A stretch of DNA of 64,000 nucleotides from Gammaproteobacteria bacterium (lineage in GTDB: Bacteria > Pseudomonadota > Gammaproteobacteria > Ga0077536): assembly GCA_021773835.1 (NCBI GenBank), contig JAJFJQ010000059.1, positions 62,001 through 126,000 on the forward strand, written 5' to 3'. The translations under genes were made by a program, and so were the position numbers. Below the pieces are notes generated by a model. It saw only the letters and a list, made by a program, of their open reading frames with translations, searched no databases and was not told the DNA's origin. This document shows, one piece after another, positions 9,060 to 59,922 of the stretch (positions within the stretch are counted from its first letter, which is position 1; each line of letters starts with the position of its first letter).

Positions 9060-9427
9060 GTCTTGTGTACGGACAAGCCTTCAATCGTCGCAACGAAGGA
9101 CTTCAAATCGATCGGTTTACTGACAAATCCATCAAAACCGGCATCAGATACGCGGCTGCGGTCTGTCGCAGTGACAGATGCAGTGAAAGCGATCACGGGA
9201 ATCCTAGAAGTCGTAGTGTTCGCACGGATCTGATTGAGCGCCTCAACCCCATCGATGCCTGGCATCTGGATATCCATCAGTACAATGTCAGGAAGGTGCT
9301 CGGCTGCTTGTACGACGCCGTCTTCGCCGTTGTCTGCCGTGAACACTGTGTGCCCGTTCGCTTCAAGAATATCGCGCGCGAGTTTCATGTTCATCGCATT
9401 GTCTTCGACAATTAGTATCGCGCTCAT
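9056..9427 (-). CDS. Single-domain response regulator (DivK/CheY-like)
   Basis: A 123-residue stand-alone receiver domain with acidic pocket VEDN (residues 7-10), phosphoacceptor Asp52 in LMDIQMPG, the switch Thr in AFTAS and the Lys in SKPID. It has no output domain, so it acts as a phosphate shuttle or protein-interaction switch. It overlaps the kinase gene upstream and the receiver-cyclase gene downstream, each by 4 bp (ATGA), which implies tightly coupled translation and a shared pathway. Confidence 0.93.
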   Translation of the reverse strand: MSAILIVEDNAMNMKLARDILEANGHTVFTADNGEDGVVQAAEHLPDIVLMDIQMPGIDGVEALNQIRANTTTSRIPVIAFTASVTATDRSRVSDAGFDGFVSKPIDLKSFVATIEGLSVHKT

Positions 9428-12400: not shown

Positions 12401-14313
12401 ACATCGGGAATTTGCACCGGCGCACGTTCAAGCACCGCACGTCCGCTGATCGTACTCGGCGCGGGCTTCATTGGGAAAATGGTACGGGTCGCATCGCTCG
12501 TCTGTCGCGATAGTCCGACCTCGCTCCCAATATGCATCAACTCCCCGTCAAAGCGCACCGCGAACCCAAACGCTGCATTGCAAAGTGTAACGGCACGTTC
12601 GGTAATCGCATCGAACACTGGCTCCACATCGGTGGGGGAGCTACTGATAACGCTCAGAATCTCAGCGGTAGCCGTCTGACGATTCAGGGCCTCTTGTGTC
12701 TCATTGAATAAACGGGCGTTTTCTATCGCGATAACCGCCTGGTCGGCGAAGCTTTCGAGCAAGCTAATTTGCCTTTCGGTGTAAGGAGCGCGAAGCGTTC
12801 GCCCGACGCTGATCGATCCGATCGCGCGGCCGTGTCGCAAAATCGGTACGCCGAGCACACTTTGCATACCGGTATCTTGCACGGCGCGTTTCACTGCGCC
12901 GTCGTAATTGGCTTCAATGTCAAGGGTCTGAACCGACTTACCCTCTAGAATCGCACGCAGGGATATCAGGCCAGCATGAGGTGGGGTTGGGAAAATCTCT
13001 TGCACAGCGGTTTCGAGCTTTTGCGGGACTCGCGATGCCGCTAAACTCGCTATTTCGCCGTCATAGCGAGTCACCAAGACCATTTCTGAATTGCTCAGCG
13101 CCCCTGCGCGTTCCGCTATCGCATCGAAGACCGGCTGCGCGTCGGTGGGGGAGCTACTGATAACGCCTAGTATCTCGGCGGTAGCTGTCTGACGGCTCAG
13201 GGCCTCTTCGGTTTCATTGAACAGACGTGCGTTTTCAATTGCGATCACGGCCTGATCGGCGAAAGTTTCAAGCAAGTTAACCTGCTTATCGGAGAATGGA
13301 CTATGCAGACTTCGCGCAACGGTGATCGAGCCTATAACTCGGCCTTCCTGTAGTATCGGTACTGCGAGAGCGCTACGTAAACCCATATTTTGTACGGCGC
13401 GTTTCACTTCACCGTCGTAACCGGACTCCGCGTCAAGGCTGTGGGTCTGAACCGGCTCACCGGCTAGAATCGCGCGCAGGGAGATCAAGCCGGAATGCGG
13501 GACGGTTGGGAACATGTTTTGCAGTACCGACTCGACCCCTTGCGGGACTCGTGCCGCAGCCAAATGAACGAGCGCGCCGTCATACCGAGTTACTAAAGAC
13601 CATTCCGCTCCAAACAACGCCACGGAGCGTTCCGCTATTGCATCGAAGACTGGCTGCGCGTCAGTTGGCGAACGGCTGATAATACCTAGAATTTCGGCGG
13701 TTGCCGACTGACGATCCAAGGCCTCTTGGGTCTCATTGAACAGACGGGCATTCTCGATAGCAATGACCGCTTGGTCGGCGAAGGTTTGTAATAACTTGAT
13801 GTGATTGTCCGAAAACAAACCTGGTTCTGCGCGGCCGACCCCAATAGATCCAATGCAGGTGTCGCCAATTAGCATCGGTACGGCGAGAACGTTTCGAAGT
13901 TCAGATTGTAGGCCCGCATCCTTGACCGCGTAGTCGGTGTCATTCACGATGTCGGCACTTTGCACCGGCGCACGATCTTCGATAGCTTGTGTGACAAGCA
14001 GTCCGCGGCCCGGGAGCATCGGAAACACAGCCCGAACTGCTGCTTCCGACTCCGGCGATACACCGTGATAGGCGACCATGTGGATCTGCTCCCCGTCGAA
14101 TCTGGTCATTGAGCCCATCCCCGCATCGCACAAATCCATCGCCCGTTCAGTTATGACGTCGAATACTGGCTGTAGATCACTCGGCGACTCGCCGATGATC
14201 CGCAACACATCGTTGATCGCGGTGCGATAAGCACGTTCTTCTTCCAGCTCGGCGGCGCACGCTTCGAGCTCTCGCTCGAGTGCCGTATAGGATTTTTTTG
14301 AGGTATCGGTCAT
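9424..14313 (-). CDS. Giant sensor histidine kinase with eight GAF domains
   Basis: A 1629-residue soluble kinase. A short coiled coil at the N-terminus is followed by eight GAF domains repeating every ~170 residues (about 510 bp), each introduced by a helix reading like ALEQQTATAEILxVISSSPTD. The kinase core at the C-terminus has the H-box SHELRTPLN with phosphoacceptor His1413, an N-box (LNLLSNAVKF), DTGIGI and GTGLGLAL. No membrane segment is evident, so ligands are sensed in the cytoplasm. GAF sequences fall into subgroups (1-5 are alike; 7 and 8 form a near-duplicate pair), suggesting growth by duplication. It heads an operon with two receiver genes. Confidence 0.93.
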   Translation of the reverse strand: MTDTSKKSYTALERELEACAAELEEERAYRTAINDVLRIIGESPSDLQPVFDVITERAMDLCDAGMGSMTRFDGEQIHMVAYHGVSPESEAAVRAVFPMLPGRGLLVTQAIEDRAPVQSADIVNDTDYAVKDAGLQSELRNVLAVPMLIGDTCIGSIGVGRAEPGLFSDNHIKLLQTFADQAVIAIENARLFNETQEALDRQSATAEILGIISRSPTDAQPVFDAIAERSVALFGAEWSLVTRYDGALVHLAAARVPQGVESVLQNMFPTVPHSGLISLRAILAGEPVQTHSLDAESGYDGEVKRAVQNMGLRSALAVPILQEGRVIGSITVARSLHSPFSDKQVNLLETFADQAVIAIENARLFNETEEALSRQTATAEILGVISSSPTDAQPVFDAIAERAGALSNSEMVLVTRYDGEIASLAASRVPQKLETAVQEIFPTPPHAGLISLRAILEGKSVQTLDIEANYDGAVKRAVQDTGMQSVLGVPILRHGRAIGSISVGRTLRAPYTERQISLLESFADQAVIAIENARLFNETQEALNRQTATAEILSVISSSPTDVEPVFDAITERAVTLCNAAFGFAVRFDGELMHIGSEVGLSRQTSDATRTIFPMKPAPSTISGRAVLERAPVQIPDVSKDTQYMRRQAASQSMLSVPLINEGQVLGAITVGRPQIGLFPDNLVNLLKTFAEQAVIAIENVRLFNETQEALEQQTASSEILHVISASPTDVQPVFDTITALSMKLCNAKMGAAMRFDGEWIHLTSVHGLPPEAIALAQTGFPVKPGRTSLSGRIVLEREPVQIVDLSADAEYNMAGAAQEVGSCFGVPLMREDQVVGTLVIAREEKGPFPEKQINLLKTFADQAVIAIENVRLFNETQEALEQQTAISEVLRVITESPSDVQPVLEALAERAADLCTAATASIYLTIGDKLHHVTSRGDRADDALEAEVIPIDRTSTSGRAVLDRKTIHVEDMQAEVDEYPRGYEIAHRLGHRTIVVAPLLREGQPFGTIVLRRMEVRPFNDRELALLRTFGDQAAIALENVRLFNETTEALEHQTAAAEVLRVISSSVSDTAPVFEKILDSCERLFECGEIVVTLTSDDGLLHLGSLRGALSEELRDVFPIPLEQSHTGVAIRERRIVHTPDVGDLGEMTPAYQWFFDKVGNFSNIVAPMLWEGRGIGSIVLTRHPPRAFTDKEIALLETFADQAVIAIQNARLFNETNEALEQQTATAEVLSVISSSVADTAPVFEKILDSCERLFASEELGIMLAGEDGLAHVGAFRGVELERLTNLFPLPLEQTALAPAIHQQGPVHFPNVGNLTEMPPSLRGLYERVGNFSIVIAPMLWEGRVVGSISVNRAPPKPFSDKEIALLVTFADQAVIAIENARLFHEIEDKSRQLEIADQHKSEFLANMSHELRTPLNAIIGFSEVLIERMFGELNEKQDDYLKDIYSSGKHLLALINDILDLSKIEAGRMDLELESFDVEAALANTLTLIRERAQQHGIALALDTGTGLGELYADQRKLKQIMLNLLSNAVKFTPDGGSIDVRASQVDGTLEVAVTDTGIGIAETDQDTIFQEFRQVGGDYTNKQEGTGLGLALTKRFVELHGGTLSLTSEPGTGSTFTFTLPDQS

Positions 14314-38929: not shown

Positions 38930-40537
38930 TTAAGGCGATAGGTGCCCCGTTTTAACTCGCGCGTTTGGCGAACAGGCGCGCGAGTCTATCCAAGACAAAC
39001 ATAGCGCCTCTACCTGCGAAGCGTAGGCAGCGGTGCCGAACACATAATGATCGGGCCGAACTAGGGCAGCGACACAATTGTGATCGACGAACCATTGCTC
39101 GAGTAGACCGTTCTGTTCGCCCACAGTTAGCGTGTTCCCTGGGGCTAAATCATCGCCGTCGCTTAACTGGATGCATCGCAGCCGATGAAGGTCACACAAT
39201 CCAAGAACGTGAGGGCTTAGCGCCTTCATCTCTAGCGATTTTCTGAACACGAGTATCGGTTCACGTCCGACAAGGTCATCAAAGCGCGCCGGATCCCTTC
39301 CGCCTCCGACGAAAGGTTGCGGGAACACCGCACCGGCACCATTTGACCCAGGTAGGATCAAGCCATCCGTTAAATCCGGGATCAATGATTGCCGCGATCG
39401 CACCACCGGCGGATCGCCAAAATCTGCGAGCATCCTCGCATCCCGCTCAAGTGCAGCGGATTGGTCCATTTCACAGATAACACGGCCCAGACCCTTGGCG
39501 ATTTCCGTGGTCGCTCGAACGTGCGGCGCACGCTCTTCCACATAGGTATCGAGTAGTTCATCTTCAGACCTACCGTCGAGGACCCGCTCGAGCTTCCACA
39601 CCAGATTGGCGGCATCACGAAATCCCTGGGTCATTCCTTGCGCCATAAATGGGGGCGTCATATGGGCGGCGTCGCCTAGCAGCAATATTGGTCCGGCACG
39701 CCAATCCTTTGCTACCACCGCGTGAAATTCATAAGTTGCCCATCGCCACAGCTCGGCGTCGCCGGGTTTGAGCCACGGTTTTAGTAGATCCCACACCGCC
39801 GCTTCGTCTTCAAACGCCGCTGCGCGCTCGTGCTCGAGTAGGCGGATCTCCCAGCGTCGATGGTTCCCGGTACCGATCACATAGGTAGCGGGGCGTGACG
39901 GGTTGCAGTGTTGGATGATCGTCGATGGTAAACGTGCAAGTGTCGCATCGGAGCACAGGGCATCCACCACGAGCCAAGGTTCATCAAAATCGAGTGAGGT
40001 CATCCCCGCACCCAGTATCTTGCGCACGGTGCTCGCACCACCGTCCGCAGCCAATAGAAAACGCGTCGTGATCGATACCGCCTCGGCCCCGTTCTGGATT
40101 GAAATCTGCACGCAGGGATCACGAGCCGTGATGCCCAAGAATTCGCATGGCGCGCGCACTTCCACGCAATCGAAGCGACTCAGGCCAGAACGCAGCGCAG
40201 CTTCGAATGGTGGTTGTCGAAACACATAATTGGGTGCCCAGCCGAGCGGGTACGGTGGCGCCTGCATATCAAAGCGACTGATCACCTGCCCATCAACACC
40301 GTGATATTCGCTCGGCGCGTATGGCGCAATCAAAGGTTCAATCGAGTCGGTAAGCCCGCAATTTTGCAGGATCCGCATGGCGTCGTGATCGAAGGCGATC
40401 GCACGCGGCGACCCATAGACCTCACTGTCTTTGTCAATAATGAGGGTTTTTATGCCCCGCAGACCAAGCAAATTGGCAGCAAGTGCGCCAACCGGCCCCA
40501 TGCCGACCACGACGACGTCAAACGTCGGCTCGGGCAT
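38930..40537 (-). CDS. FAD aromatic hydroxylase, MhpA-like
   Basis: A 535-residue flavoprotein monooxygenase resembling 3-(3-hydroxyphenyl)propionate hydroxylase. I use ATG 40537, which overlaps the stop of the VOC gene by one base (TGATG); the longer frame is an artefact. The FAD loop is GMGPVG, LAADGG is the DG motif, and GDAAHMTPPFMAQGMTQGFRDAANL is the second FAD signature. It would hydroxylate a phenolic ring with NAD(P)H and O2. It is the last gene of a minus-strand block with VOC, FAH and LLM genes. Confidence 0.88.
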   Translation of the reverse strand: MPEPTFDVVVVGMGPVGALAANLLGLRGIKTLIIDKDSEVYGSPRAIAFDHDAMRILQNCGLTDSIEPLIAPYAPSEYHGVDGQVISRFDMQAPPYPLGWAPNYVFRQPPFEAALRSGLSRFDCVEVRAPCEFLGITARDPCVQISIQNGAEAVSITTRFLLAADGGASTVRKILGAGMTSLDFDEPWLVVDALCSDATLARLPSTIIQHCNPSRPATYVIGTGNHRRWEIRLLEHERAAAFEDEAAVWDLLKPWLKPGDAELWRWATYEFHAVVAKDWRAGPILLLGDAAHMTPPFMAQGMTQGFRDAANLVWKLERVLDGRSEDELLDTYVEERAPHVRATTEIAKGLGRVICEMDQSAALERDARMLADFGDPPVVRSRQSLIPDLTDGLILPGSNGAGAVFPQPFVGGGRDPARFDDLVGREPILVFRKSLEMKALSPHVLGLCDLHRLRCIQLSDGDDLAPGNTLTVGEQNGLLEQWFVDHNCVAALVRPDHYVFGTAAYASQVEALCLSWIDSRACSPNARVKTGHLSP

Positions 40538-41088
40538 CAATGTCGCGCGGTGGCTATCCGCTCGCGGATATTGTCCTGCCATTCGGTTCGCGAAATGAAA
40601 CCCGGTCGCGAACGGCACATTGATTCGGTGCGAGTGAGGATATCGTCATCGCTTTGCCCGAGATCGAGCGGTTCGCGGCAGGGTTGCGCAGAATAGAACG
40701 GCGTATCGACGTAGAACTCGACAATGTTACCTTCCGGATCTGGAAAATAGATGGACCAGGCGTTGCCGTGATCGACTTGATCGATCTTAGACACCCCGTG
40801 GTTGGTCAATATTCTAAGATACTCGCGTAGGTCGCCGAGGCAATCGAGCTTGCACGATATCTGATTGACCGTATTGAAATTCACGTCCTCGGGGCGGCCG
40901 TCAATCAGTACTAATTGATGATGCTCTTCGGGATCTTGGGTCAGAAATACAATACGCGATCCGAATGAAGCCACACCTTCATCGCTAACGACGAACCCAA
41001 TCGCTTGGCAGTAGAACGCCGTCATCCGATCGATATCGGTGACGTTGATCCCCATGTGCCTAAGCTTAACCGTCGGCAATGAACTCAT
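40537..41088 (-). CDS. VOC-fold protein, possible ring-cleavage dioxygenase
   Basis: A 183-residue vicinal-oxygen-chelate protein with two beta-alpha-beta modules. Candidate metal ligands are the His in RHMGINV, the His in HHQLVL and the Glu in GNIVEFYVD, the facial triad seen in extradiol dioxygenases and glyoxalases. A ~45-residue charged tail follows the core. Being translationally coupled to an MhpA-like hydroxylase and next to an FAH-family hydrolase, an extradiol ring-cleavage role is likely but not proven. Confidence 0.84.
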   Translation of the reverse strand: MSSLPTVKLRHMGINVTDIDRMTAFYCQAIGFVVSDEGVASFGSRIVFLTQDPEEHHQLVLIDGRPEDVNFNTVNQISCKLDCLGDLREYLRILTNHGVSKIDQVDHGNAWSIYFPDPEGNIVEFYVDTPFYSAQPCREPLDLGQSDDDILTRTESMCRSRPGFISRTEWQDNIRERIATARH

Positions 41089-46989: not shown

Positions 46990-48672
46990 TTAACTAACGG
47001 GACTTTTACACAAGATACGCGTTATTGCGTCACCCAAAACGCTTGCTGCATTACTCGTATAAGCGCGCATGCGCCACCCAACATAACCGTCCGGTCTAAC
47101 CAACACTGCACCGGACGATTCAATACCGTAGGTATGTGCGAACGGGCGGGAGGAGGAATTCGAGATCTTTTCTCGATTCAAGGGCATGTCCACCAGGGCG
47201 CCGCTACCGCCAATATCGGCAATTAGATGCGCGTCAATCTTAATGCCGGTTTGCTGCGCCGCTTCGGCTGCCGCCGCAATCCATTGGCTGCCAGCATAAG
47301 CGACCATAAGCACGAAACCATGACCGTATAAGTCGAGGGACGAGATTACCTCCCCGTCGCAGGATAATTCGATATGCGGTGCCCGCGTACCAGGAAGGGC
47401 GCACGATTTTCTCGGATCAATATCGGGCTCGTTGTTGTCGACATAATCGCTACTGTGAATTACCGCTGCGGAGCGGTAACGATTGAATTCAACATGCATG
47501 TCGGGGATCTGCTCCATCATCCCAGCGGTGCCAATGTCCGGATCGGAGCGCGTGACGTAGCGCTGATAGGCTTGTTCAATCGCTTGTCTGCCGGCGGGTT
47601 GGCGCTCGTTATTGTACGTATCGAGCAACCCGGAGCTAGCATCGCCCCGCGTTACCTGGGCGATCTTCCAGGCTAGGTTGTGCGCATCCTGCACCCCTGT
47701 GTTACCGCCAAAACCACCAGTCGGGGTCATCGTATGCGCCGCGTCGCCGGCGAGAAAAATCCGCCCATCTTGAAACCGCTCAGCGGCATGGCACACCGCG
47801 ACCCACTGATGAATATCTTCGACATTCACAGTTAAGTCTTGGTCGCCGACCGCGTCACGAACCATTTGCGCGGCCTTGTCCTGGTCAATCCCATCTGCGG
47901 CATTGCGTGCCTGTGGATCCTTGATATCGCCAACGGTGAACACGACCAGAAAGCCGCCTAAGCCGGTTTTTTCGAGTCGAAAGAATCCGCGCACTTGTGG
48001 GTTGTTGACATAGATGACGCCGAGGTTGCGGCCACGCAGCGCCTGCGAGCAATCGGCTCGAAAATAGATCGTGATGCTGTGCGAGAGCACCGGGTGGCCT
48101 TCCATTTTGATCCCTAAGGACTCGCGCACCGGACTTCGATTGCCATCGCAGGCGATCAAATACTGCGCACGAAAATGTCGCTTCCGACCGGTATCAATAT
48201 GCTCGGCCGTGACGCTCACACCTTCGGCATCCTGCGTGACTTCTGTAACCTCATTGGCGTACTGAAACTCCGATCCGAGTTCCGTTGCACGGTCTTTTAT
48301 TATCGGCTCGAGCACTTGTTGCGGCATAAACAAGCGGCGCGCAGGACTAACATCGTCTACGCCTTGATTGATATCTGGGATGTAGTTTGCGATTTCCCGC
48401 CCAGCCAAGGTCTCAACGGCGTTTAGACCACCGTTCGGATCGTATAACGCGTGCGCCGCCTTAATAACTTTATCTTCTATGCCCGCGATCCGCATCAATT
48501 CCATCGTGCGCAATTGAAAATAACCGGCGCGCGGATGAATAGCAGTCCCTCGATGCTTCTCGATCGACAAACATTTCACCCCATGCAAGCCCAAAAACAT
48601 CGCACTAGCGAGACCGACAAGGCTTCCGCCAATTGTGATCACTGGGTAATGTTGGATATCAGGCGTTGTCAT
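46990..48672 (-). CDS. FAD-dependent aromatic monooxygenase (PHBH fold)
   Basis: A 560-residue flavoprotein hydroxylase. The FAD loop is GGSLVGLASAMFLG, LIACDGNRSPVR is the DG motif and FLAGDAAHTMTPTGGFGGNTGVQDAHNLAWK is the second FAD signature. The C-terminal thioredoxin-like region (~400-560) is as in phenol hydroxylase relatives. It likely hydroxylates a phenolic or polyketide ring. The 259 bp upstream hold no convincing gene. Confidence 0.9.
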   Translation of the reverse strand: MTTPDIQHYPVITIGGSLVGLASAMFLGLHGVKCLSIEKHRGTAIHPRAGYFQLRTMELMRIAGIEDKVIKAAHALYDPNGGLNAVETLAGREIANYIPDINQGVDDVSPARRLFMPQQVLEPIIKDRATELGSEFQYANEVTEVTQDAEGVSVTAEHIDTGRKRHFRAQYLIACDGNRSPVRESLGIKMEGHPVLSHSITIYFRADCSQALRGRNLGVIYVNNPQVRGFFRLEKTGLGGFLVVFTVGDIKDPQARNAADGIDQDKAAQMVRDAVGDQDLTVNVEDIHQWVAVCHAAERFQDGRIFLAGDAAHTMTPTGGFGGNTGVQDAHNLAWKIAQVTRGDASSGLLDTYNNERQPAGRQAIEQAYQRYVTRSDPDIGTAGMMEQIPDMHVEFNRYRSAAVIHSSDYVDNNEPDIDPRKSCALPGTRAPHIELSCDGEVISSLDLYGHGFVLMVAYAGSQWIAAAAEAAQQTGIKIDAHLIADIGGSGALVDMPLNREKISNSSSRPFAHTYGIESSGAVLVRPDGYVGWRMRAYTSNAASVLGDAITRILCKSPVS

Positions 48673-48931: not shown

Positions 48932-50602
48932 CTAATCTACGAGTACGCCAACGCAAAAATGCTGCATATGACGCTCGGCCATTTTGCTGTGGTAGTCGCC
49001 AAATTCACCCGTTGCATCTTTACCAGCGTGCATACGCGCAACGAATGGCCCACCTGGGTGATGATCTTTCCATTCGCTGATGTCGTAGACCTTGCCCCGG
49101 ATGATCACCCAACAATCCTCAAACGTGCTGTGCTCCGCCACTTCTGCTCGGGTGACGTCGCGATCGCCATCCAAGGAGACCGGCGGCTTCCAAAGATTAC
49201 CCATCACTTCGCGTCGGGCATCGAGTGCAGCGGCGCGCGATCGGAAATCCCACGGTCCGAGTTTCTTTTGCGGCAGTTTATCGCCGATTTCACGCGCGTC
49301 GAAGGCATAGATCCACGAATCATTCGAGCCCGCACGTTCATCATGATTGAACACGGGATAATCGCGTTCGTCTAAGGCCTTAAGGATCTGGCGCCGTTCG
49401 GGTGAGTCTTCTGGTTCTAGGTGCTTAAACAAAAACTTCGAACCGAATTGAAAACGCGTGGCACGATAGTGACGGACTCGCTCGTAGTGTAACAGGGCAC
49501 TGTAGACATCTTTACCATGGAGCTTGAAGCAACTGCTAAGCGCGGCGCCATCTTCAAATGCCTGTGCTGCACCCTGGCCGAAAGTCGGTAACATTGGATG
49601 AGCAGCGTCGCCGAGCAGACATACCCGACCCTCTTGCCAATGTTCAAAGGCGTCGCGATCGTAGAGTCCCCATTTCGTCGGGTTCACCATGCCACTGGCC
49701 AAGGTTAAGATGTCTTCTCGGCGCGGATCGCCCGCAAACGCCTTACCCATCTTTTCACGCATTTCGTCATGGTCGATTGGGAACCAGTCGGCCCAATCCT
49801 CTTGGAACTCCTTTGAATCCGGTTCGTGATAGGCGAGCCACACATTGAGCAATTCGCCGCTGCGTACCCAATAGGTCATACACCAGGCGTGCGGATGTTT
49901 GCGCACGTCCATGCTGTATGACTCGATCGGGTTGTTATCCATTGGGCCGCCGTCGGCGTGGCGCAGCGTTTCAAATTTTTCGCGCGGGACTAATCCACGA
50001 TAAACGGTGACCTCTGTCCAACGTCTCGGCGGCGTATCCGGCCATTGTAGGTCTAGCACTTTGGAGTTGATCCCATCGGCACCGATCAACAACTCTCCCT
50101 CGGCCGAGCTGCCGTCTTCGAATCCGGCCGTGGCAATGGTGTCGGTTTGGCTAAGCGAACTCAGGCGCTTATTCATGTGTACTTGGATCGGACAATCCAC
50201 GCCCGATTCCGGACTAAAGTCCATCACACGTTTATGCAAGCACATCAAAAGGTCGAGCCGATGCATGTGATGGAAACCCGCCCCATCACCGACTGCGGTC
50301 TTGTGATCGAATGGCTTTTTGGAAACCTTCCCATCGGCAAAAATTTCTCGGGTCGCATCAAGGATTGCCGCGCGCCCGCCATCAACCGCGCCATGCGGAC
50401 CTTTAGGATCGCCACCGTCCAGATCAATGCCGAGCCAACTACAGAGTCTTGCGCCATTCGGCGGAATGTTGAGTCCGGCCCCGGCGGTGTTTGGTTTTAC
50501 TGTTTGTTCGTAGACATTGACCTCACTGAATTGGCCCGACTGACGCAAGGCCAACGCCGTGAATAGTCCTCCCATTCCGCCACCAACTATTACCGCACGC
50601 AT
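48932..50602 (-). CDS. FAD monooxygenase fused to a cytochrome b5 domain
   Basis: A 556-residue protein with two parts. Residues 1 to ~440 are a salicylate-hydroxylase-like flavin monooxygenase (GGGMGG FAD loop, IGADGINSKV, GDAAHPMLPTFGQGAAQAFEDG). Residues 481-556 are a cytochrome b5 heme domain: DCWVIIRGKVYDI, HPGG with His515, AGKDAT, and second heme ligand His538 in YHSKMAERHM. The heme could hand electrons to, or take them from, the flavin. I know of few such bacterial fusions, so it deserves study. The substrate is unknown. Confidence 0.9.
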   Translation of the reverse strand: MRAVIVGGGMGGLFTALALRQSGQFSEVNVYEQTVKPNTAGAGLNIPPNGARLCSWLGIDLDGGDPKGPHGAVDGGRAAILDATREIFADGKVSKKPFDHKTAVGDGAGFHHMHRLDLLMCLHKRVMDFSPESGVDCPIQVHMNKRLSSLSQTDTIATAGFEDGSSAEGELLIGADGINSKVLDLQWPDTPPRRWTEVTVYRGLVPREKFETLRHADGGPMDNNPIESYSMDVRKHPHAWCMTYWVRSGELLNVWLAYHEPDSKEFQEDWADWFPIDHDEMREKMGKAFAGDPRREDILTLASGMVNPTKWGLYDRDAFEHWQEGRVCLLGDAAHPMLPTFGQGAAQAFEDGAALSSCFKLHGKDVYSALLHYERVRHYRATRFQFGSKFLFKHLEPEDSPERRQILKALDERDYPVFNHDERAGSNDSWIYAFDAREIGDKLPQKKLGPWDFRSRAAALDARREVMGNLWKPPVSLDGDRDVTRAEVAEHSTFEDCWVIIRGKVYDISEWKDHHPGGPFVARMHAGKDATGEFGDYHSKMAERHMQHFCVGVLVD

Positions 50603-50691: not shown

Positions 50692-51390
50692 TCATTGGCT
50701 CCGACAAGCCTCCCGATGTTTGTCAAACCAAGAAAAAAGCTCATCTGGACTAAAGCCGTTTCTCACCGAATGTCCAATTCCGGGCAACACGTTTAGTGAG
50801 GCATCGCCACCCAAATCGGAGATCCGCTGTTGCGTTTCGCGCATTCGCCCGACCCAACGTCCATCTTGTTCACCGACGACTAACAGCATCGGTATTGCCT
50901 GAATGTCGGCGAGCCGATCGAAGTCGCGATCATTAGCTGGGAACCCTGGAAATGCTGCTAGCGAGCAGAATCTTTTTGGATGAGCTTCGGCGATCCGAAA
51001 CGCACTGATACCACCGTTGCTGATGCCGGCGATATGAAAGCGCTCACCCTCGATCTTGTATTCCCGTGCGATCTCATCCAATAAAACTGGAATTTTCTCT
51101 TCCGCACCATCGAAAAACAGAACGCCGTCCGGTGCGACTGGATTGACGACGATGTACCCCCGTGGTTTACCAAAACCCCAATACCCTTGCATCGCCCATT
51201 CGACCATCTGCCGACTCCCGTCACCCGGTGGCAGTGCGAGGACGGCCGGGTAGGATTTATCCGGATCGAAACCTTCTGGCGTGACTACGGCGTAGGTGAG
51301 ATCGCTGAGGAGTTCTTCGGCAAATAGTACGCACGGAAGAAACGCTACGAGACAAGAGATGACTACAAGACTTTTGATGTTGTTCATCAT
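50692..51390 (-). CDS. Exported alpha/beta hydrolase (esterase-like)
   Basis: A 232-residue protein with an export signal (residues 1 to about 24) and an alpha/beta hydrolase core. The nucleophile Ser124 lies in GISNGG, the acid is the Asp in VVGEQDGRW and the His is in GIGHSV. It resembles secreted esterase/polyhydroxybutyrate-depolymerase-like or feruloyl-esterase-type enzymes. It may release substrates outside the cytoplasm for the neighbouring catabolic enzymes. Confidence 0.85.
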   Translation of the reverse strand: MMNNIKSLVVISCLVAFLPCVLFAEELLSDLTYAVVTPEGFDPDKSYPAVLALPPGDGSRQMVEWAMQGYWGFGKPRGYIVVNPVAPDGVLFFDGAEEKIPVLLDEIAREYKIEGERFHIAGISNGGISAFRIAEAHPKRFCSLAAFPGFPANDRDFDRLADIQAIPMLLVVGEQDGRWVGRMRETQQRISDLGGDASLNVLPGIGHSVRNGFSPDELFSWFDKHREACRSQ

Positions 51391-51546: not shown

Positions 51547-54000
51547 TTACGATCGAGTGCGTACACTCTTCGGATCGTACATCGGCTTCAACGACGCGCG
51601 TGCCGTGTAGGTGCGATCAGCTTGTTCTATCGTATAGCTACCTCCAGCAACATACTCTGGCGTAACCCCGTCGTCGTTATTCACGTATCCCATCGCCGCA
51701 CACCCACCTAAGGTATGTGCATATCCAGCGGACATGGTGTAACCGACTCGTTCGCCGTCGCGTAAAATTGGCTCGTTGTGCGTCAACATCGGCTCCGGAT
51801 CGTCAAGCACGAATTGAACGAGGCGACGTTTCAACGCACCCGCGTCGCGTTGTTGTACCAGCGCCTCGCGACCGAGAAACCCGCCGGACTTATCCCACGC
51901 GGCGGTGAAACCGAGTCCCGCTTCGAGCAAGGTTTCTAACGGCCCCATGTCGTGAGCCCATTCACGGTAGGCCTTTTCGATGCGTAAGGTATTGAGTGTG
52001 TGATAGCCGCAATGCTTGAGGCCGTGATCGACGCCAGCCGCAATGAGTTGGTCATAAACCGGCAACGCCATCTCAGTTGGGATATAGAGCTCCCAACCGA
52101 GTTCACCAGTATATGAAATTCGGATCGCCATCGCATTCTGATAGCCGATTTCTACTTGCTGCATCGAGCCAAACGGAAACTGCGCGTTTGAAAAATCGCC
52201 ACTTGAAATTGAACTCAACAGCGCCCGCGAGTTTGGCCCCTGCACGCTTAACATTGCATAGGCACCGGTCACATCAGTCACCAAGCAAAACGAACCAGCG
52301 GGAATGTTTTCGTGAATCCACGCGTGCACATGGGTCTGGGTGAACGCTGCTGTAACGACGAAGTAAGTGTCGGCTGCTAATCGTGTGATCGTGAGATCCG
52401 CCTCAACCCCGCCGCGTACATTTAAAAATTGCGTATAGACGACCTTACCAACCGCAACGTCAACATCGGCGGTAGAGATCCGATTTAATACCGCACAAGC
52501 ATCGCGGCCTTGAACGAGTAACTTGGCAAAAGACGATTGCTCGAACACCCCAACGGCTTCGCGCACCGCAATATGTTCCTCACGATTATTGTCAAACCAG
52601 TTTTGGCGCCCAAAATCGTATTCGTAGGTGGCCTCTTGTCCAGCCCGCGCGTACCAGTTTGGACGTTCCCACCCGGCGGATTCGCCGAAGCACGCGCCAG
52701 CGGCAGCCAAACGATCGTGCAGTATCGATTGCTTAACATTGCGCGCAGTCTCCCATTGCCGATTTGGCCAATGCATCTGATAGGCGATCCCGAGCGATTC
52801 GTAGATACGGTCAACAACGAAGGATTTATTGTTTTGGCACGGTTGGATACGGCGGACATCAACGTCCCAAATATCCATCGGCTGAACACCGTCGTTGATC
52901 CACTGCGCCATCACGTTGCCGGCACCACCGCCGGAGAGGATCCCGAGCGAATTAAACCCACAGGCAACGAACAGATTTTGCTTAAAGGGCGCACGCCCCA
53001 TTAGATAATTGTGATCTGGGGTAAACGATTCAGGGCCACAAAAGAATTGGCGGATCCCAGTATCAAACAAGATCGGCAATCGCTCCATCCCCGTATGCAG
53101 ATGCGACTCCATGCGTTCCCAATCGGGTTGGATCTCATCGAAACAGAAGTTCTCCGGGATCCCGTCGACACCCCATGGCGCCGCCACTGGTTCAAAAAAC
53201 CCGAGTAGGATCTTGCCTACTTCTTCGCGTGCGTAAACTGCACGGCCCGGGTCACGCAAGATCGGAAGCTTGTTATGGATACCTTCGATCGGTTCCGAAA
53301 TGAGGTAGTAGTGCTCCGCGGCCTGCAACGGTAGATCAACTCCGGCGCGCAACCCCACCTCGCGTCCCCACATACCCGGACACAACACCACGACCTCTGC
53401 CGTGATGTCGCCTTGTTCCGTTTGTACACCGACCGCGCGTTCCCCATCGAACATCACATCTGTAACTTTGCAGTTCTCAATGATAGTAACCCCGCGCTGG
53501 CGGGCGCCTTTGGCTAGTGCTTGAGCGACATCGGCAGGGTTTACCCGGCCGTCGTCTGGAAAGTAGAAGCCCGCAACCAAATCGTCGACATTAGCGTGGG
53601 GGAATAGCTCCTTTATTTCTGCCGGGGTCACTTCCCGGTTCTCGACGCCAAACGTGCGCGCCATCGCACAACCGCGTCGCATCTCTTCAGCCTTATCCGC
53701 ATCCATTGCCAGTTGCACCGAGCCACAATTGATAAAGCCGGTTGATTGTCCAGTCTCTGCTTCGAGATCGCTGTACAGCTGCAGTGAGTACTGGGCCATT
53801 CGGGTTTGTGCTTCGGTATCGCGCAAGGTCGTGATCAGGCCCGCCGCATGCCAGGTCGTGCCACAGCTGATCTGCTTGCGCTCAAGCAAAACAACGTCGT
53901 CCCAGCCAAGCTTCGCGAGATGGTAGGCGGTCGAACACCCAATGACCCCACCACCGACAACAACGGCACGGGCGTGTTTAGGAAAATCGTTTTCAGTCAT
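51547..54000 (-). CDS. Dimethylglycine/sarcosine dehydrogenase-like flavoenzyme (GcvT fusion)
   Basis: An 817-residue protein: an N-terminal DAO-type FAD oxidoreductase domain (GGGVIG loop; TWHAAGL with His51, the residue that covalently attaches FAD in DMGDH relatives), a linker, and C-terminal GcvT-type aminomethyltransferase domains (from about residue 430) that bind tetrahydrofolate. It probably demethylates N-methylated glycine derivatives and passes the one-carbon unit to THF. It is divergent from hydantoinase A/B genes, which fits a creatinine/N-methylhydantoin-type route. Confidence 0.9.
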   Translation of the reverse strand: MTENDFPKHARAVVVGGGVIGCSTAYHLAKLGWDDVVLLERKQISCGTTWHAAGLITTLRDTEAQTRMAQYSLQLYSDLEAETGQSTGFINCGSVQLAMDADKAEEMRRGCAMARTFGVENREVTPAEIKELFPHANVDDLVAGFYFPDDGRVNPADVAQALAKGARQRGVTIIENCKVTDVMFDGERAVGVQTEQGDITAEVVVLCPGMWGREVGLRAGVDLPLQAAEHYYLISEPIEGIHNKLPILRDPGRAVYAREEVGKILLGFFEPVAAPWGVDGIPENFCFDEIQPDWERMESHLHTGMERLPILFDTGIRQFFCGPESFTPDHNYLMGRAPFKQNLFVACGFNSLGILSGGGAGNVMAQWINDGVQPMDIWDVDVRRIQPCQNNKSFVVDRIYESLGIAYQMHWPNRQWETARNVKQSILHDRLAAAGACFGESAGWERPNWYARAGQEATYEYDFGRQNWFDNNREEHIAVREAVGVFEQSSFAKLLVQGRDACAVLNRISTADVDVAVGKVVYTQFLNVRGGVEADLTITRLAADTYFVVTAAFTQTHVHAWIHENIPAGSFCLVTDVTGAYAMLSVQGPNSRALLSSISSGDFSNAQFPFGSMQQVEIGYQNAMAIRISYTGELGWELYIPTEMALPVYDQLIAAGVDHGLKHCGYHTLNTLRIEKAYREWAHDMGPLETLLEAGLGFTAAWDKSGGFLGREALVQQRDAGALKRRLVQFVLDDPEPMLTHNEPILRDGERVGYTMSAGYAHTLGGCAAMGYVNNDDGVTPEYVAGGSYTIEQADRTYTARASLKPMYDPKSVRTRS

Positions 54001-54180: not shown

Positions 54181-56244
54181 ATGCAATACATACTCGGCGT
54201 CGATATTGGCGGTACGTTTACGGATTTCTCGCTCCTTGACGATGTTGGGAATATTTCGCTGTGGAAAGAAGCAACCACCCCGAAAAATCCCGGCGAAGCG
54301 GTTCAGCAAGGCATCCGTGCGCTCGCCGAGCAGACCGGGATGGAACTCGATACTTTCCTAAAGCGGTTGGATCTTTTCGTACACGGTCAGACGATCGCGA
54401 CCAACACCGTTATCCAACGTAACGGCCCAAAGACCGCATTATTGTGTACCGAGGGGTTTCGTGACGTGATCCACTTCCGCGACGGTTTCAAACCGGAGCG
54501 CTATAACATCCAACTGCCACCGCCTGAGGATTTCGTACCGCGTTATCTCCGTATTCCGATAACCGAACGGGTTAAATACGACGGCACTGTCGTCCAACCC
54601 TTGGACGAAGATTCGGTACGCACGGCCGCCGCAAAGCTGCGCTCAGAAAACGTCGAATCGGTGGCGGTCGCCTTCCTCTGGTCGATTGTCAACACCGCGC
54701 ATGAGCAACGGGTGAAAGCGATATTGGCTGAAGAGCTGCCAGATGTTCCCGTCGTGCTGAGCTCGGACGTATTACCTATGATCCGCGAATGGGAGCGTAC
54801 GACCTGCACCATCTTAAGCGCTTATGTCTTACCGGGCATCGCGCGCTACATGGTGGAATTGGAAGAATTTTTACACGGCAATGCCTATCCACATCCACTT
54901 TTAATAATGCAGCTCAATGGCGGTAGCTCGACGGTCAATAAAGTATTACAGCGACCGATAAACTCGCTCGCCTCGGGCCCGGCTGCGGCGCCGGTCGCGG
55001 GATTGTATTGCTCGGAACGGATCGGCATGCCAAACGTCATCACCATCGACATGGGTGGAACGAGCTTCGATGTATCGATGGTTACTGACGGCTCCCCAAC
55101 CTTGACTCGCGAGCTTCGCGTCCACGACATGCCGGTGGGGGTTGCAGCCGTTGATGTGCATTCCATCGGTGCCGGCGGCGGCAGTATTGGTTGGATCGAT
55201 AAAGGCGGGGCGCTCCAAATGGGTCCGCAAAGTGCGGGCGCGGAACCCGGACCCGCGTGTTACGACCAAGGCGGCACGCTCCCAGCGTGCACCGACGCGA
55301 ACGTTGTATTGGGGTATATCAACCCCGACTACTTCCTCGGTGGTCGACGCGAAATCAATACGGAACATTCCGCGCGTGCGGTCGAGGAGCACATTGCCAA
55401 ACCGCTCGGCCTAAGTGTTCCGGCTGCCGCCCACGGCATGTTTCGGATCATCAATAACAATATGGTTGATGCGATTCGAGTCGTCTCAATCGAGCGCGGA
55501 GTCGACCCCCGGAACTACGCACTGGTCGTTGGTGGCGGGGCCGGGGCGATCCACGCTGGCATGTTGGGGCGAACGCTTGGCATGAAGAAAGCAATCATCC
55601 CACGTTACAGTGGCGTTTTTTGCTCCTTTGGCATGATCGTCAGCGATGTGCGTCACGACTATATGCAAGCGCATGCGACTAACACCGCACGCTTCGATGT
55701 AGCGGGTGTGAACAAGGTCGTTGCAGAACTCGAACGCAAAGCGATGGATGACATGGTCGAAGAAGGATTTCCGGAAGGCGAAGTCATTTTGAGTCGTTTC
55801 GCCGACGCCAAATACCCCGCGCAAATCCACGAGCTGACGATCCCAATACCATCGGATGGCGAGCTAGGCAAAGCGTCTATCAGCGAAATGGAGCAAACCT
55901 TCCACGATCTGCACGAACGCATGTTTACTTATAGCGTGCGAGAAAGCCCAGTGGATTTATTCCATTGGCGGGTGGTCGCGCATCGAAAGGTGGATTCGCC
56001 CGCGACGCCTGCGTTTCCAGCAGCAGAACAATCGATCGAAACGGCGCAAAAAGCGACCCGAAGTGTCTATTTTGGCGACATCGACGACTATCGCGACACG
56101 AACATCTATGACGGCGATTTGTTGCAGCGCGGCATGAGTGTAGCGGGTCCGGCCGTCGTCGAGCAGAAAAATACTACAATAGTGGTATTTCCTGGCCAAA
56201 AGCTTGAGGTCAACGAATACGGCGATTTCGTATTAGACCTATAA
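54181..56244 (+). CDS. hyuA: Hydantoinase/oxoprolinase A-type subunit
   Basis: A 687-residue protein of the HyuA/oxoprolinase/acetone-carboxylase beta family. It opens with DIGGTFTDFSLLDD, an ASKHA-type phosphate-binding loop, and has TIDMGGTSFDVS and GGGAGAIHAGMLGR later. These ATP-dependent enzymes open hydantoin, 5-oxoproline or related rings or carboxylate ketones. The B subunit gene begins 34 bp downstream. GAGG lies 7 bases before the ATG. N-methylhydantoinase is favoured by the adjacent DMGDH-like gene. Confidence 0.92.
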   Translation: MQYILGVDIGGTFTDFSLLDDVGNISLWKEATTPKNPGEAVQQGIRALAEQTGMELDTFLKRLDLFVHGQTIATNTVIQRNGPKTALLCTEGFRDVIHFRDGFKPERYNIQLPPPEDFVPRYLRIPITERVKYDGTVVQPLDEDSVRTAAAKLRSENVESVAVAFLWSIVNTAHEQRVKAILAEELPDVPVVLSSDVLPMIREWERTTCTILSAYVLPGIARYMVELEEFLHGNAYPHPLLIMQLNGGSSTVNKVLQRPINSLASGPAAAPVAGLYCSERIGMPNVITIDMGGTSFDVSMVTDGSPTLTRELRVHDMPVGVAAVDVHSIGAGGGSIGWIDKGGALQMGPQSAGAEPGPACYDQGGTLPACTDANVVLGYINPDYFLGGRREINTEHSARAVEEHIAKPLGLSVPAAAHGMFRIINNNMVDAIRVVSIERGVDPRNYALVVGGGAGAIHAGMLGRTLGMKKAIIPRYSGVFCSFGMIVSDVRHDYMQAHATNTARFDVAGVNKVVAELERKAMDDMVEEGFPEGEVILSRFADAKYPAQIHELTIPIPSDGELGKASISEMEQTFHDLHERMFTYSVRESPVDLFHWRVVAHRKVDSPATPAFPAAEQSIETAQKATRSVYFGDIDDYRDTNIYDGDLLQRGMSVAGPAVVEQKNTTIVVFPGQKLEVNEYGDFVLDL

Positions 56245-56278
56245 ACTAGTTGATTACATTCCAAGTCGAGGACTGATT

Positions 56279-58195
56279 ATGAGCACAATAGATCCCGTCA
56301 AGAATATCGGAAGCCAAGACGAGTCGATTCCACTGTTGGCTGAAGAAAACATTGATCCGATTACGTTCTCAGTGATTTTAAATCGGTTTAGCACGATCGC
56401 CCGCGAGATGACCCTCGCGCTCGAATACACCTCTTGGACCTCGATTCTAGCTTTGGCGAGGGATTTCTCTTGTGCGATCTATGACGCCAAAGCACGCCAG
56501 GTTTGCATGATGGATGCGTTACCGATCCATACAAACTCGCTGCATGTGATTTTGCGATCGATGGTCAAAGCCTTCGAAGGCAACGTCTATGACGGCGACG
56601 TGATCGTCAGTAACGATCCGTATAGCGGCAACACCCACGTTGGCGACTTCGTTACGGCCTGCCCCATCTTCTATGAAGGCGAACATCGATTCTGGGCCGT
56701 TACAAAAGGGCACCAACTCGATTGCGGTGCCTACGAGGCGACCAGCGTCGCACCAAGTGCCAAAGACGTCTGGCAAGAGGCACTGCAACTACCGCCGATC
56801 AAATTCTACGAAAAAGGCGAACCTCGCCAAGACGTGATCAACATGTACCTCGCGAACGTTCGCTACAAGGAGTTGCTCTACGGTGATCTAAAGGCGCAAC
56901 TAGGTTCTATTTGGACCGGTAAGCGACGCATGATCGAACTCATCGACGAATATGGACCACAAGAGTTAGACCACTACGTCGAGGCAATCCTGGATTATGC
57001 GGACCGCCGCACCAGTGAAGAGATCAGAAATATCCCCGACGGTACCTACGAGGCGGACTCGTGGATTGATTCCGACGGTATGGGCAACACAAATCTCACC
57101 GTCCATGCAGCCGTCACAGTCGAAGACGATCGCATTCATGTCAATTTCGCCGGCAGCTCGCCCCAAGGTGCGGGCGGTACAAACGGCACGATTGGCGTAA
57201 TGGAAGCCTCCGCAGGGATACCAATACTCACGGCGATCGATCCCGAGATACCGCATAACGACGGCTGTTTAAGGCACATCACCTGCGAGGCACCGTTAGG
57301 ATCTATCGTCAGCGCTAAATATCCCGCCGCAACTGCTATGGCAACCTTGTGTCCGGCGGCCCAAGAACAAGAGGTGATCTGGAAGGCGCTCGCGCAAGCT
57401 GTACCCGAGCGAACGTCTGCAGGCTACGGCGGCTTTCATTGCATTCCCTCAATTTCGGGGGTTGATAAGCGCGGAGACGAGGAAGAAGGTTGGGCCGCCA
57501 TGTTTTTCAACGGCGGATCCGGCGGTGGCGCCTCGAAGAACGCCGATGGCTGGCCTTTGATCATGCTGTCTTCCGGCCTCGGCGGCCTCAAGATCATCAG
57601 CACCGAAATGAGTGAATTACTGTATCCGATCATGATGGATCACCATGAGATCGAGACCGACTCCATGGGACATGGCAACACCATGGGCGGCGCTGGGATC
57701 CGTATCGAAGTACGCCCCTACGACACCCCGATGGAATGCCATGCAACCGGCGACGGCGCCTCGAATCCGCCTTTTGGTGTGTTCGGCGGTACCCCCGGGA
57801 TCGGCGGTGGCAACTACCGCGAGAACCTCGACACTGGCCATCGCGACTACTGCTCTAGTAAGGGCTATATGCTGATTGAACCTGGTGAAATGTGGGTTGG
57901 CGTGTCATCGGGTGGTGGCGGTTTCGGGGACCCGCTTGAGCGTTCGGCCGAGAAGGTTTGCGAACACGTGCGCGACGAGATCATCAGCTTTGAGACCGCG
58001 CGCGATATCTATGGTGTGGTGATGGATCCCGTAACGTTCAAGCTCGACGAGCAAGCGTCGATAGCGCGTCGCGCGCTGCTTTCCGAACAACGTGGCGAAG
58101 TGCCGATGATTCAGCCAACTCAGGCGGATTCGGCAACCTGGCTACAGGAGAACATGCGCGAGGGCGATAACTATCTGCTCGACCCATTACCGTGA
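56279..58195 (+). CDS. hyuB: Hydantoinase/oxoprolinase B-type subunit
   Basis: A 638-residue HyuB-family protein: EENIDPITFSVILNRF at the start, VSNDPYSGNTHVGDF, GGTNGTIGVMEA and late GAGIRIEVRPYDTP and GGGGFGDPLERS. It forms the partner of HyuA. GAGG is 7 bases before the ATG. A long perfect inverted repeat lies just after the stop. Length is normal for the family, perhaps with a slightly extended N-terminus of ~20 residues before the conserved part. Confidence 0.92.
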   Translation: MSTIDPVKNIGSQDESIPLLAEENIDPITFSVILNRFSTIAREMTLALEYTSWTSILALARDFSCAIYDAKARQVCMMDALPIHTNSLHVILRSMVKAFEGNVYDGDVIVSNDPYSGNTHVGDFVTACPIFYEGEHRFWAVTKGHQLDCGAYEATSVAPSAKDVWQEALQLPPIKFYEKGEPRQDVINMYLANVRYKELLYGDLKAQLGSIWTGKRRMIELIDEYGPQELDHYVEAILDYADRRTSEEIRNIPDGTYEADSWIDSDGMGNTNLTVHAAVTVEDDRIHVNFAGSSPQGAGGTNGTIGVMEASAGIPILTAIDPEIPHNDGCLRHITCEAPLGSIVSAKYPAATAMATLCPAAQEQEVIWKALAQAVPERTSAGYGGFHCIPSISGVDKRGDEEEGWAAMFFNGGSGGGASKNADGWPLIMLSSGLGGLKIISTEMSELLYPIMMDHHEIETDSMGHGNTMGGAGIRIEVRPYDTPMECHATGDGASNPPFGVFGGTPGIGGGNYRENLDTGHRDYCSSKGYMLIEPGEMWVGVSSGGGGFGDPLERSAEKVCEHVRDEIISFETARDIYGVVMDPVTFKLDEQASIARRALLSEQRGEVPMIQPTQADSATWLQENMREGDNYLLDPLP

Positions 58196-58311: not shown

Positions 58312-59922
58312 TTAGTCCTTGATCAGGATCGATTGTAAAAACTCATCCAGCACGGCGAACGATGCGAGGCCGGTGCGACAACCGATGTATCCATCTGGTC
58401 GTACCATGATTAATTCACCACCCGCACTCGCATTGAGGGATTTCGCCACCAGCGCTCGCGGGTCTTCGATAGGCAATAAACCCGGCCATGGATAAGGCAC
58501 GGCAGGGGCGATCAGTTCGGTCCGGATAATGCCCGGATAATGACGCTCCAGTAACCCATAGACGGCAGTTGCCGCTTCAAGTTGCTCACCCTCAGTCTCG
58601 TCGAGTATGGCGAGTAAAGTAAATCGAGTATGTGCAAAAAGCTGATGTAGGCGAACGTGCGCGGAGATCACGACGTCGGGCACACGTTCGCCGATCGCCG
58701 GTTCCACCTCGGTGTTGCAACCATCGGGCAATACAATCGCGCCGCGATAGTTGTAACTCAAGCCAGATACCCGCGCGACTGCATTGTCATTCCAGCCGTC
58801 GGTTTGCGTCAGCGCCATCCGATCTTCGAGCCCGCCACCGTGTGCAAGGATGATCTCATGGATGGCGGAGCTACCTTCGATGACCTGCTCTGAAACCGGT
58901 TCGCGTTCGATCTCGTAAGTCTCGAGCAAAGATTCTTGTGCTTTGCCTTGCACTACCAGCGCAAGCTTCCAGCCAAGGTTGTAGGCATCTTGCATACAAA
59001 CATTCCAGCCCTGACCGCCAGCGACAGAATGGATATGCCCGGATTCGCCACATAAGAACACATGGCCCTTACGATATTGCTCCGCCTTGCGGATCCAGAT
59101 CTCCCACGTCGTTTTCCATTCGGGCTCACCGATACCCACTTCCGGCAGGTCATCGCCAACTATTGGCGTGATCAGATCTGATTTGGCGATTTCCTCGGGG
59201 TCACCTTGTGCGCTGACCAACACGCGGTGATTAGGACCAGCGAGTTTGCCGATCATGAGAAAGGTGTCTTTTGAAATGTAGTAATGCAGGAGATTATCAG
59301 CACCTTCGAAGTTCTCAAGCCGGGCATCGATCATCTGCATGACCAGCCCTTCATACTCAACGCCCGAATACTTGATGCCGAGACATTCTCGCGTTGGACT
59401 GTGTAGTCCGTCGCAGGCAACCACCCATTGAGGGTGAATGCACTCGTCAGACACGCTATCCCCAGTTGCGTGCTGGAGCGTAACGCTTAGATTGCCGGCT
59501 GGATCTTCCGATATGTCGGTAAGCTCGGTTTCCCATTCAATTGCCAGACCGAGGTTCAACTCCAAATGGTCGCGTAATATTTTCTCAGTTTCGTTTTGAT
59601 TGAACATGCAAACGAAGGGGTAACGGGTAGGCAATCGCGTGTAGTCCAAGCGCGGTTTCAGATCACTGTCGCGGAAATTGAAAATATACCCTTCGTTCAA
59701 CACGCCACCCTGGAGGAAACGCGGCGCCAATCCCATATCGTCCAGGATCTCCATTGTGCGTGCGTGTACCGTTATCGCGCGCGAGGTGATCCCGTGGCCG
59801 CTACGCCTTTCCACGATGCGACAATCGATCCCACGACGGCGGAGTTCGATCGCGGTAACCATACCCGTGGGGCCGGCACCTACAATGAGGACTTCTGGTT
59901 TAGAACTGTTTTTCATTGGCAT
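58312..59922 (-). CDS. FAD-dependent aromatic monooxygenase (PHBH fold)
   Basis: A 536-residue flavin hydroxylase: VGAGPTGMVTAIEL, VACDGLHSPTRE and a third element in which GDAAH is replaced by CGESGHIHSVAGGQGWNVCMQDAYNLGWK. The usual GDAAH is therefore altered to GESGH, a substitution worth noting because this segment contacts FAD. A thioredoxin-like C-terminus follows. It is a paralogue of the 46990 protein by fold. It lies downstream of a repeat locus and is convergent with hyuB. Confidence 0.88.
   Translation of the reverse strand: MPMKNSSKPEVLIVGAGPTGMVTAIELRRRGIDCRIVERRSGHGITSRAITVHARTMEILDDMGLAPRFLQGGVLNEGYIFNFRDSDLKPRLDYTRLPTRYPFVCMFNQNETEKILRDHLELNLGLAIEWETELTDISEDPAGNLSVTLQHATGDSVSDECIHPQWVVACDGLHSPTRECLGIKYSGVEYEGLVMQMIDARLENFEGADNLLHYYISKDTFLMIGKLAGPNHRVLVSAQGDPEEIAKSDLITPIVGDDLPEVGIGEPEWKTTWEIWIRKAEQYRKGHVFLCGESGHIHSVAGGQGWNVCMQDAYNLGWKLALVVQGKAQESLLETYEIEREPVSEQVIEGSSAIHEIILAHGGGLEDRMALTQTDGWNDNAVARVSGLSYNYRGAIVLPDGCNTEVEPAIGERVPDVVISAHVRLHQLFAHTRFTLLAILDETEGEQLEAATAVYGLLERHYPGIIRTELIAPAVPYPWPGLLPIEDPRALVAKSLNASAGGELIMVRPDGYIGCRTGLASFAVLDEFLQSILIKD

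Follow-up and report, generated by a model that had tools for sequence, protein, structure and literature searches.

A fused flavin monooxygenase and cytochrome b5 gene

The window, the whole 64,000-nucleotide stretch of DNA analysed here, carries on its reverse strand a gene (48932..50602, (-)) that encodes a group A FAD monooxygenase module, a linker and a cytochrome b5 domain within one 556-residue protein. The open reading frame begins with ATG behind the upstream sequence GGGAG, and no internal stop or frameshift was found in it. The flavin module (49298..50602, (-); residues ~1–435) contains the motifs GxGxxG (residues 7–12), GxG (41–43), DG (176–177) and GD (331–332). Its FAD loops are complete, reading GGGMGG from residue 7, GADG from 174 and GDAAH from 331, and the GD-motif loop together with Pro339 is preserved. 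The linker (49163..49297, (-); residues ~436–480) includes the sequence LGPWDFR. The cytochrome b5 domain (48935..49162, (-); residues ~481–556) supplies the heme ligands His515, within HPGG, and His538, with a ligand spacing of 23 residues. Both domains score well above their Pfam cut-offs (FAD_binding_3, 56.7 versus 22 bits; Cyt-b5, 85.7 versus 23.7 bits over residues 484–554), and they are the only Pfam matches at E ≤ 0.001; a domain of the FMN-dependent alpha-hydroxyacid dehydrogenases was not found. The original prediction of one complete frame joining a flavin hydroxylase to a C-terminal b5 domain is thereby borne out, and the FAD loops and both histidines lie where it had placed them.

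In an AlphaFold model (mean pLDDT 76, pTM 0.74), confidence is high in the flavin module and low to moderate in the linker and b5 domain, being weak in the linker and in parts of b5. The predicted fold of the flavin module is that of the group A monooxygenases. Its closest predicted similarities include the tropone monooxygenase TrlE (8rqh; VIA-align Z 43.0, 2.1 Å over 358 residues), NicC (Z 40.7) and salicylate hydroxylase (5evy; Z 33.6). These Foldseek and VIA matches span residues 1–448 only, and the b5 fold is assigned from sequence; flavocytochrome b2 chains are among the closest solved relatives of this domain. The protein falls well under the cut-off of every NCBIfam model, including that for salicylate 1-monooxygenase (TIGR03219), against which it scores 125.3 bits, far below the required 446.35.

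The gene's immediate neighbours on the same strand are a small, secreted-looking alpha/beta hydrolase 89 bp upstream (50692..51390, (-)), possibly on the same transcript, and a second group A FAD monooxygenase 259 bp downstream (46990..48672, (-)), which is RdmE/MbnF-like, carries Rng_hyd_C and has no b5 domain. Both were rejected as conserved partners, as their linkage to the fusion is not kept elsewhere; neither the nearest relatives nor the other proteobacterial family described below showed any conserved neighbourhood for the window copy. Counting the downstream gene, the window holds four further FAD monooxygenases (6307–7911, 38930–40618, 46990–48672 and 58312–59922), one of them Baeyer-Villiger-like by eye and three of group A, and this density within 64 kb suggests a catabolic island. 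An amidase and a fumarylacetoacetate-hydrolase-family gene also lie around the fusion, and neither a catechol dioxygenase nor a reductase was recognised in this region. Elsewhere in the window, a 1629-residue histidine-kinase-like protein (9424–14313, (-)) has eight evenly spaced (~171 residues) GAF-like repeats ahead of its kinase part, and a dimethylglycine-dehydrogenase-like FAD/GcvT protein (51547–54000, (-)) is divergent from a pair of genes judged by eye to be hydantoinase/oxoprolinase-like (54181–58195, (+)).

Distribution and descent of the family

When the genome that contains the window (6.1 Mb, 98% complete) was searched for Cyt-b5, a second full-length fusion, 76% identical to the window copy, was recovered from another contig. 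Another 17 fusions, one of them cut by a contig end, come from 17 further genomes or plasmids in Proteobacteria and Actinomycetota, bringing the total to 19. A sequencing, frameshift or assembly error joining two separate genes is therefore rejected, since the same architecture recurs in 18 genomes or records and twice in the window's own. Three relatives from the same family carry fusions 90, 78 and 76% identical to the window copy. More distant are those of Pseudomonas fluorescens C2 (73%), a Nocardioides metagenome-assembled genome (~69%, the truncated one), a Streptomyces linear plasmid (67%) and the actinobacterium G785 (62%), as well as those of ten genomes from another proteobacterial family (62–65%). 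At L036 (17117–18346, (+), and 12682–14120, (-)), the second copy in the window's genome lies ~5 kb from a gene for a Rieske oxygenase alpha subunit and adjoins two glutathione-transferase-like genes; glutathione-transferase-like genes likewise occur near the fusion in genome G009 and in the window.

The fusion is infrequent wherever genomes were sampled, being present in 1 of 298 Pseudomonas genomes, 2 of 345 sampled Actinomycetes, 8 of 195 genomes within one genus and 2 of 398 in a phylum-wide sample that counts the window's own genome. All matches at E ≤ 1e-60 are fusions or fragments containing the linker and b5 domain of one. No unfused homologue above ~36% identity was seen; the nearest unfused proteins share ~30–36% identity, and the best unfused plasmid match 33.6%. 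The flavin module and b5 domain thus make up an old and stable unit across two phyla. That the two descend together is also evident from their pairwise distances, which correlate among the 19 fusions (Spearman 0.84). Mean identity among the fusions is 72% in the flavin module, 56% in the linker and 75% in b5. The spread across two phyla probably occurred by horizontal transfer. The original prediction knew of few bacterial cases; the fusions form a coherent but sporadic bacterial family. No description of a FAD_binding_3 and Cyt-b5 fusion was found in the literature searched, which did not extend to subscription journals and preprints; the domains and the broad enzyme class are known, and the combination and its genetic setting are undescribed in that literature.

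A degraded example probably exists in the genome of one relative (G011), where a 170-residue frame (L038: 1153–1665, (-)) beside prophage-like tail genes retains only the linker and b5 domain of a fusion, at 70% identity. A different contig of that genome carries an isolated 45-residue match to the flavin module.

Lost residues and linked genes

The 19 fusions were aligned with their eight nearest unfused relatives, and 26 unfused group A enzymes from the loci compared served as a wider set. The motifs GxGxxG, DG and GD, as well as His515 and His538, are invariant in all 19 fusions. Two positions associated with NAD(P)H have changed. Counting from the DG motif, we take DG+3 and DG+7 to correspond to His162 and Arg166 of p-hydroxybenzoate hydroxylase (PHBH). 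In PHBH, both Arg166 (PMC3546652) and His162 (PMC6315137) have been implicated in NADPH binding. The arginine position is leucine in every fusion (Leu183 in the window copy; codon 50054..50056, (-)) and arginine in all eight nearest unfused relatives and in 25 of the 26 wider enzymes, the sole exception possibly being a mis-registered motif. DG+3 is asparagine, glycine or, once, histidine in the fusions, and so is basic in 1 of 19; it is histidine, arginine or lysine in 8 of 8 nearest unfused relatives and basic in 20 of the 26. A third change affects the general-base histidine, equivalent to NahG His226, NicC His211 and 3HB6H His213 (PMC11921375). This residue is present in all eight unfused relatives and replaced by tryptophan, tyrosine, glutamine or glycine in all 19 fusions, the window copy having Trp240 (codon 49883..49885, (-)). 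As judged from the alignment, residues linked to NAD(P)H binding have been lost across the fused clade. Because these losses mark a single clade, they represent few events, and the counts are not independent. Moreover, loss of the DG arginine does not by itself prove that NAD(P)H use has been lost, since two solved fungal hydroxylases have glutamine at that position. The description of the protein as salicylate-hydroxylase-like accordingly holds for its fold and distant sequence similarity but not for its TIGR03219 score or the missing general base.

At three loci the fusion is accompanied by a VanB-type reductase. In P. fluorescens C2, a 320-residue reductase gene (Fer2 and NAD_binding_1) starts 188 bp after the fusion. 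In G785, a homologous reductase gene overlaps the fusion gene by 17 bp, its GTG start preceded at 7 bases by a GGAGGAG site inside the end of the fusion gene. On the Streptomyces plasmid, a homologous reductase sits in a neighbouring divergent gene cluster. A motif search of these three stretches, as read, recognised no Rieske oxygenase; a Rieske-motif match in L072 was set aside, as it reads by eye as an ABC-transporter ATPase. P. fluorescens C2 has seven VanB-type reductases in total, and five of the other six adjoin a gene with a Rieske motif, as does one such reductase in genome G294 (both motif-based). The presence of a dedicated reductase beside the fusion, where such reductases normally adjoin an iron-sulphur oxygenase, suggests that the enzyme receives its electrons via the heme and not straight from NAD(P)H. 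A further reductase, in Nocardioides, is 10 kb away from the fusion; it is flanked by a Rieske oxygenase and a P450, clearly belongs with one or other of them, and is not counted as support.

In a tree of 12 reductases, some on long branches, the Pseudomonas enzyme falls in a clade of four (98/99) with Rieske-type reductases encoded by the same genome, apart from the actinobacterial ones. The fusions are far more alike across these lineages than their linked reductases are, so the simplest reading of the sequences is that Pseudomonas and the actinobacteria recruited their reductases separately. The three loci also carry genes of catechol metabolism. A catechol 1,2-dioxygenase lies ~6 kb from the fusion in P. 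fluorescens C2 (457.6 bits versus a cut-off of 392), and in G785 a catechol 2,3-dioxygenase is directly upstream (331.6 versus 320.2) with meta-pathway-like genes alongside. Streptomyces has a chlorocatechol-dioxygenase-like enzyme (290.9 bits, under its cut-off of 359) together with a dienelactone hydrolase. These linked genes point to catechol as the likely product.

Counter to electron feed through b5, no linked reductase was found in the ten members of the other proteobacterial family, and the window's genome has neither a linked reductase nor, at E ≤ 1e-20, a homologue of the fusion-linked VanB-type enzyme. That genome encodes five PF00175 proteins, all of them away from both fusion copies. 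One lies in a phenylacetate-oxygenase-like cluster and another beside phenol-hydroxylase-like and VOC dioxygenase-like genes, both assigned by eye.

Electron route and comparison with known systems

The reading we lean towards, with some reserve, is that the protein is a group A-type, catechol-forming FAD hydroxylase in which an external reductase reduces the FAD by way of the attached b5 domain. NAD(P)H would be oxidised by a VanB-type FNR/[2Fe-2S] reductase containing flavin and a [2Fe-2S] cluster, encoded next door in some lineages and elsewhere, or replaced by another type, in others. Single electrons would pass from the reductase to the b5 heme and from there to FAD, which once reduced would form the C4a-hydroperoxide that hydroxylates the aromatic ring. 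The resulting catechol would then be taken over by ring-cleaving dioxygenases. The same would presumably hold for the window copy, its reductase acting in trans. Binding of heme by the conserved ligands and the direction of electron flow are likewise expected rather than observed features of this scheme. The suggestion in the original prediction of an alternative electron donor gains from the three reductase-linked loci without a recognised Rieske oxygenase and from the loss of NAD(P)H-linked residues, and it remains unproven; redox gating and protection against uncoupling, which it also raised, found no specific support.

That NAD(P)H reduces the flavin directly, with the heme as an accessory that gates, stores or drains electrons (for instance limiting peroxide release) or aids folding or docking, seems rather unlikely but deserves the most attention among the alternatives. 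The core FAD motifs are all intact, as is the GxG loop, active fungal relatives tolerate glutamine at the DG-arginine position, and the window's genome and the ten genomes of the other family have no adjacent reductase. That the fused clade has systematically lost both the DG arginine and a basic residue at DG+3, and that reductases are linked at three loci, argues against such a route. The reductases could also have arrived beside the fusion through coincidental cluster shuffling, serving Rieske oxygenases or P450s encoded at other sites in the genome while the fusion draws on an unrelated donor. Such reductases are common, as the seven in P. fluorescens C2 illustrate, catabolic clusters are mosaic, and the Nocardioides reductase is exactly such a case. 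Coincidence is nevertheless improbable as an account of an adjacency that recurs three times in different lineages, once with the genes overlapping, when the rough chance of a reductase falling within 3 kb of the fusion is 0.003–0.007 per genome.

Electrons might instead flow in the opposite direction, as they do in cellobiose dehydrogenase and flavocytochrome b2: the substrate would reduce FAD, and b5 would hand the electrons on to an acceptor outside the protein. The heme ligands of flavocytochrome b2 are 23 residues apart, the same spacing as in the fusion, whose b5 domain resembles that of flavocytochrome b2, and the general base for phenol hydroxylation is missing from all 19 fusions. We give such a dehydrogenase little credence, as the module folds like a group A monooxygenase and retains both the GD-motif loop and Pro339, and its genetic partners, a reductase of the NAD(P)H type along with catechol dioxygenases, are those expected for an oxygenase in need of electrons. 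Returning to reduction through b5, a broader proposal has slightly less than an even chance of being correct in all its parts: that the fusions constitute a new class of aromatic hydroxylase, which has exchanged direct reduction by NAD(P)H for a one-electron feed through a tethered b5, has recruited its reductase at least twice from Rieske systems, and, as the absent general base would imply, acts on a substrate or by an activation step unlike those of known salicylate hydroxylases.

Group A hydroxylases are the textbook example of direct, substrate-gated hydride transfer from NAD(P)H to flavin. The fusion shares its fold, its FAD motifs and the WIYxxDA end of the module with members of this group, among them salicylate hydroxylase, 3-hydroxybenzoate 6-hydroxylase, NicC, TrlE and 4-hydroxybenzoate 1-hydroxylase. 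Unlike them, it has a C-terminal b5 domain and two family insertions (residues ~62–80 and ~218–230), and it lacks the general-base histidine as well as the DG arginine, which is usual in group A without strictly defining it. Flavocytochrome b2 similarly tethers a b5-type heme covalently to a flavin module; however, its b5 is N-terminal and exports electrons from an FMN dehydrogenase, a domain that the fusion does not have. In VanAB-type systems, the reductase family found beside the fusion normally feeds VanA-like Rieske oxygenases, whereas here the acceptor gene next to the reductase is a b5–flavin fusion.

Two flavin hydroxylases that resist reduction by NAD(P)H serve as precedents. One is QhpG, whose donor is unknown (PMC7876137). 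The other, the ubiquinone C5 hydroxylase Coq6, is a FAD hydroxylase of the same broad kind as the fusion; neither NADH nor NADPH reduces its FAD, and it requires instead an external protein electron chain of ferredoxin and ferredoxin reductase (PMC4726752). The carrier in Coq6 is thus a separate ferredoxin, whereas in the fusion it would be the covalently attached b5. To our knowledge, Coq6 has no heme domain. The co-encoded reductases and invariant heme ligands make the electron route of the fusion directly testable. If the proposed route is correct, the family would offer a hydroxylase whose reduction could be wired to other donors and a tractable bacterial model for Coq6 and other flavin hydroxylases that receive their electrons from proteins.
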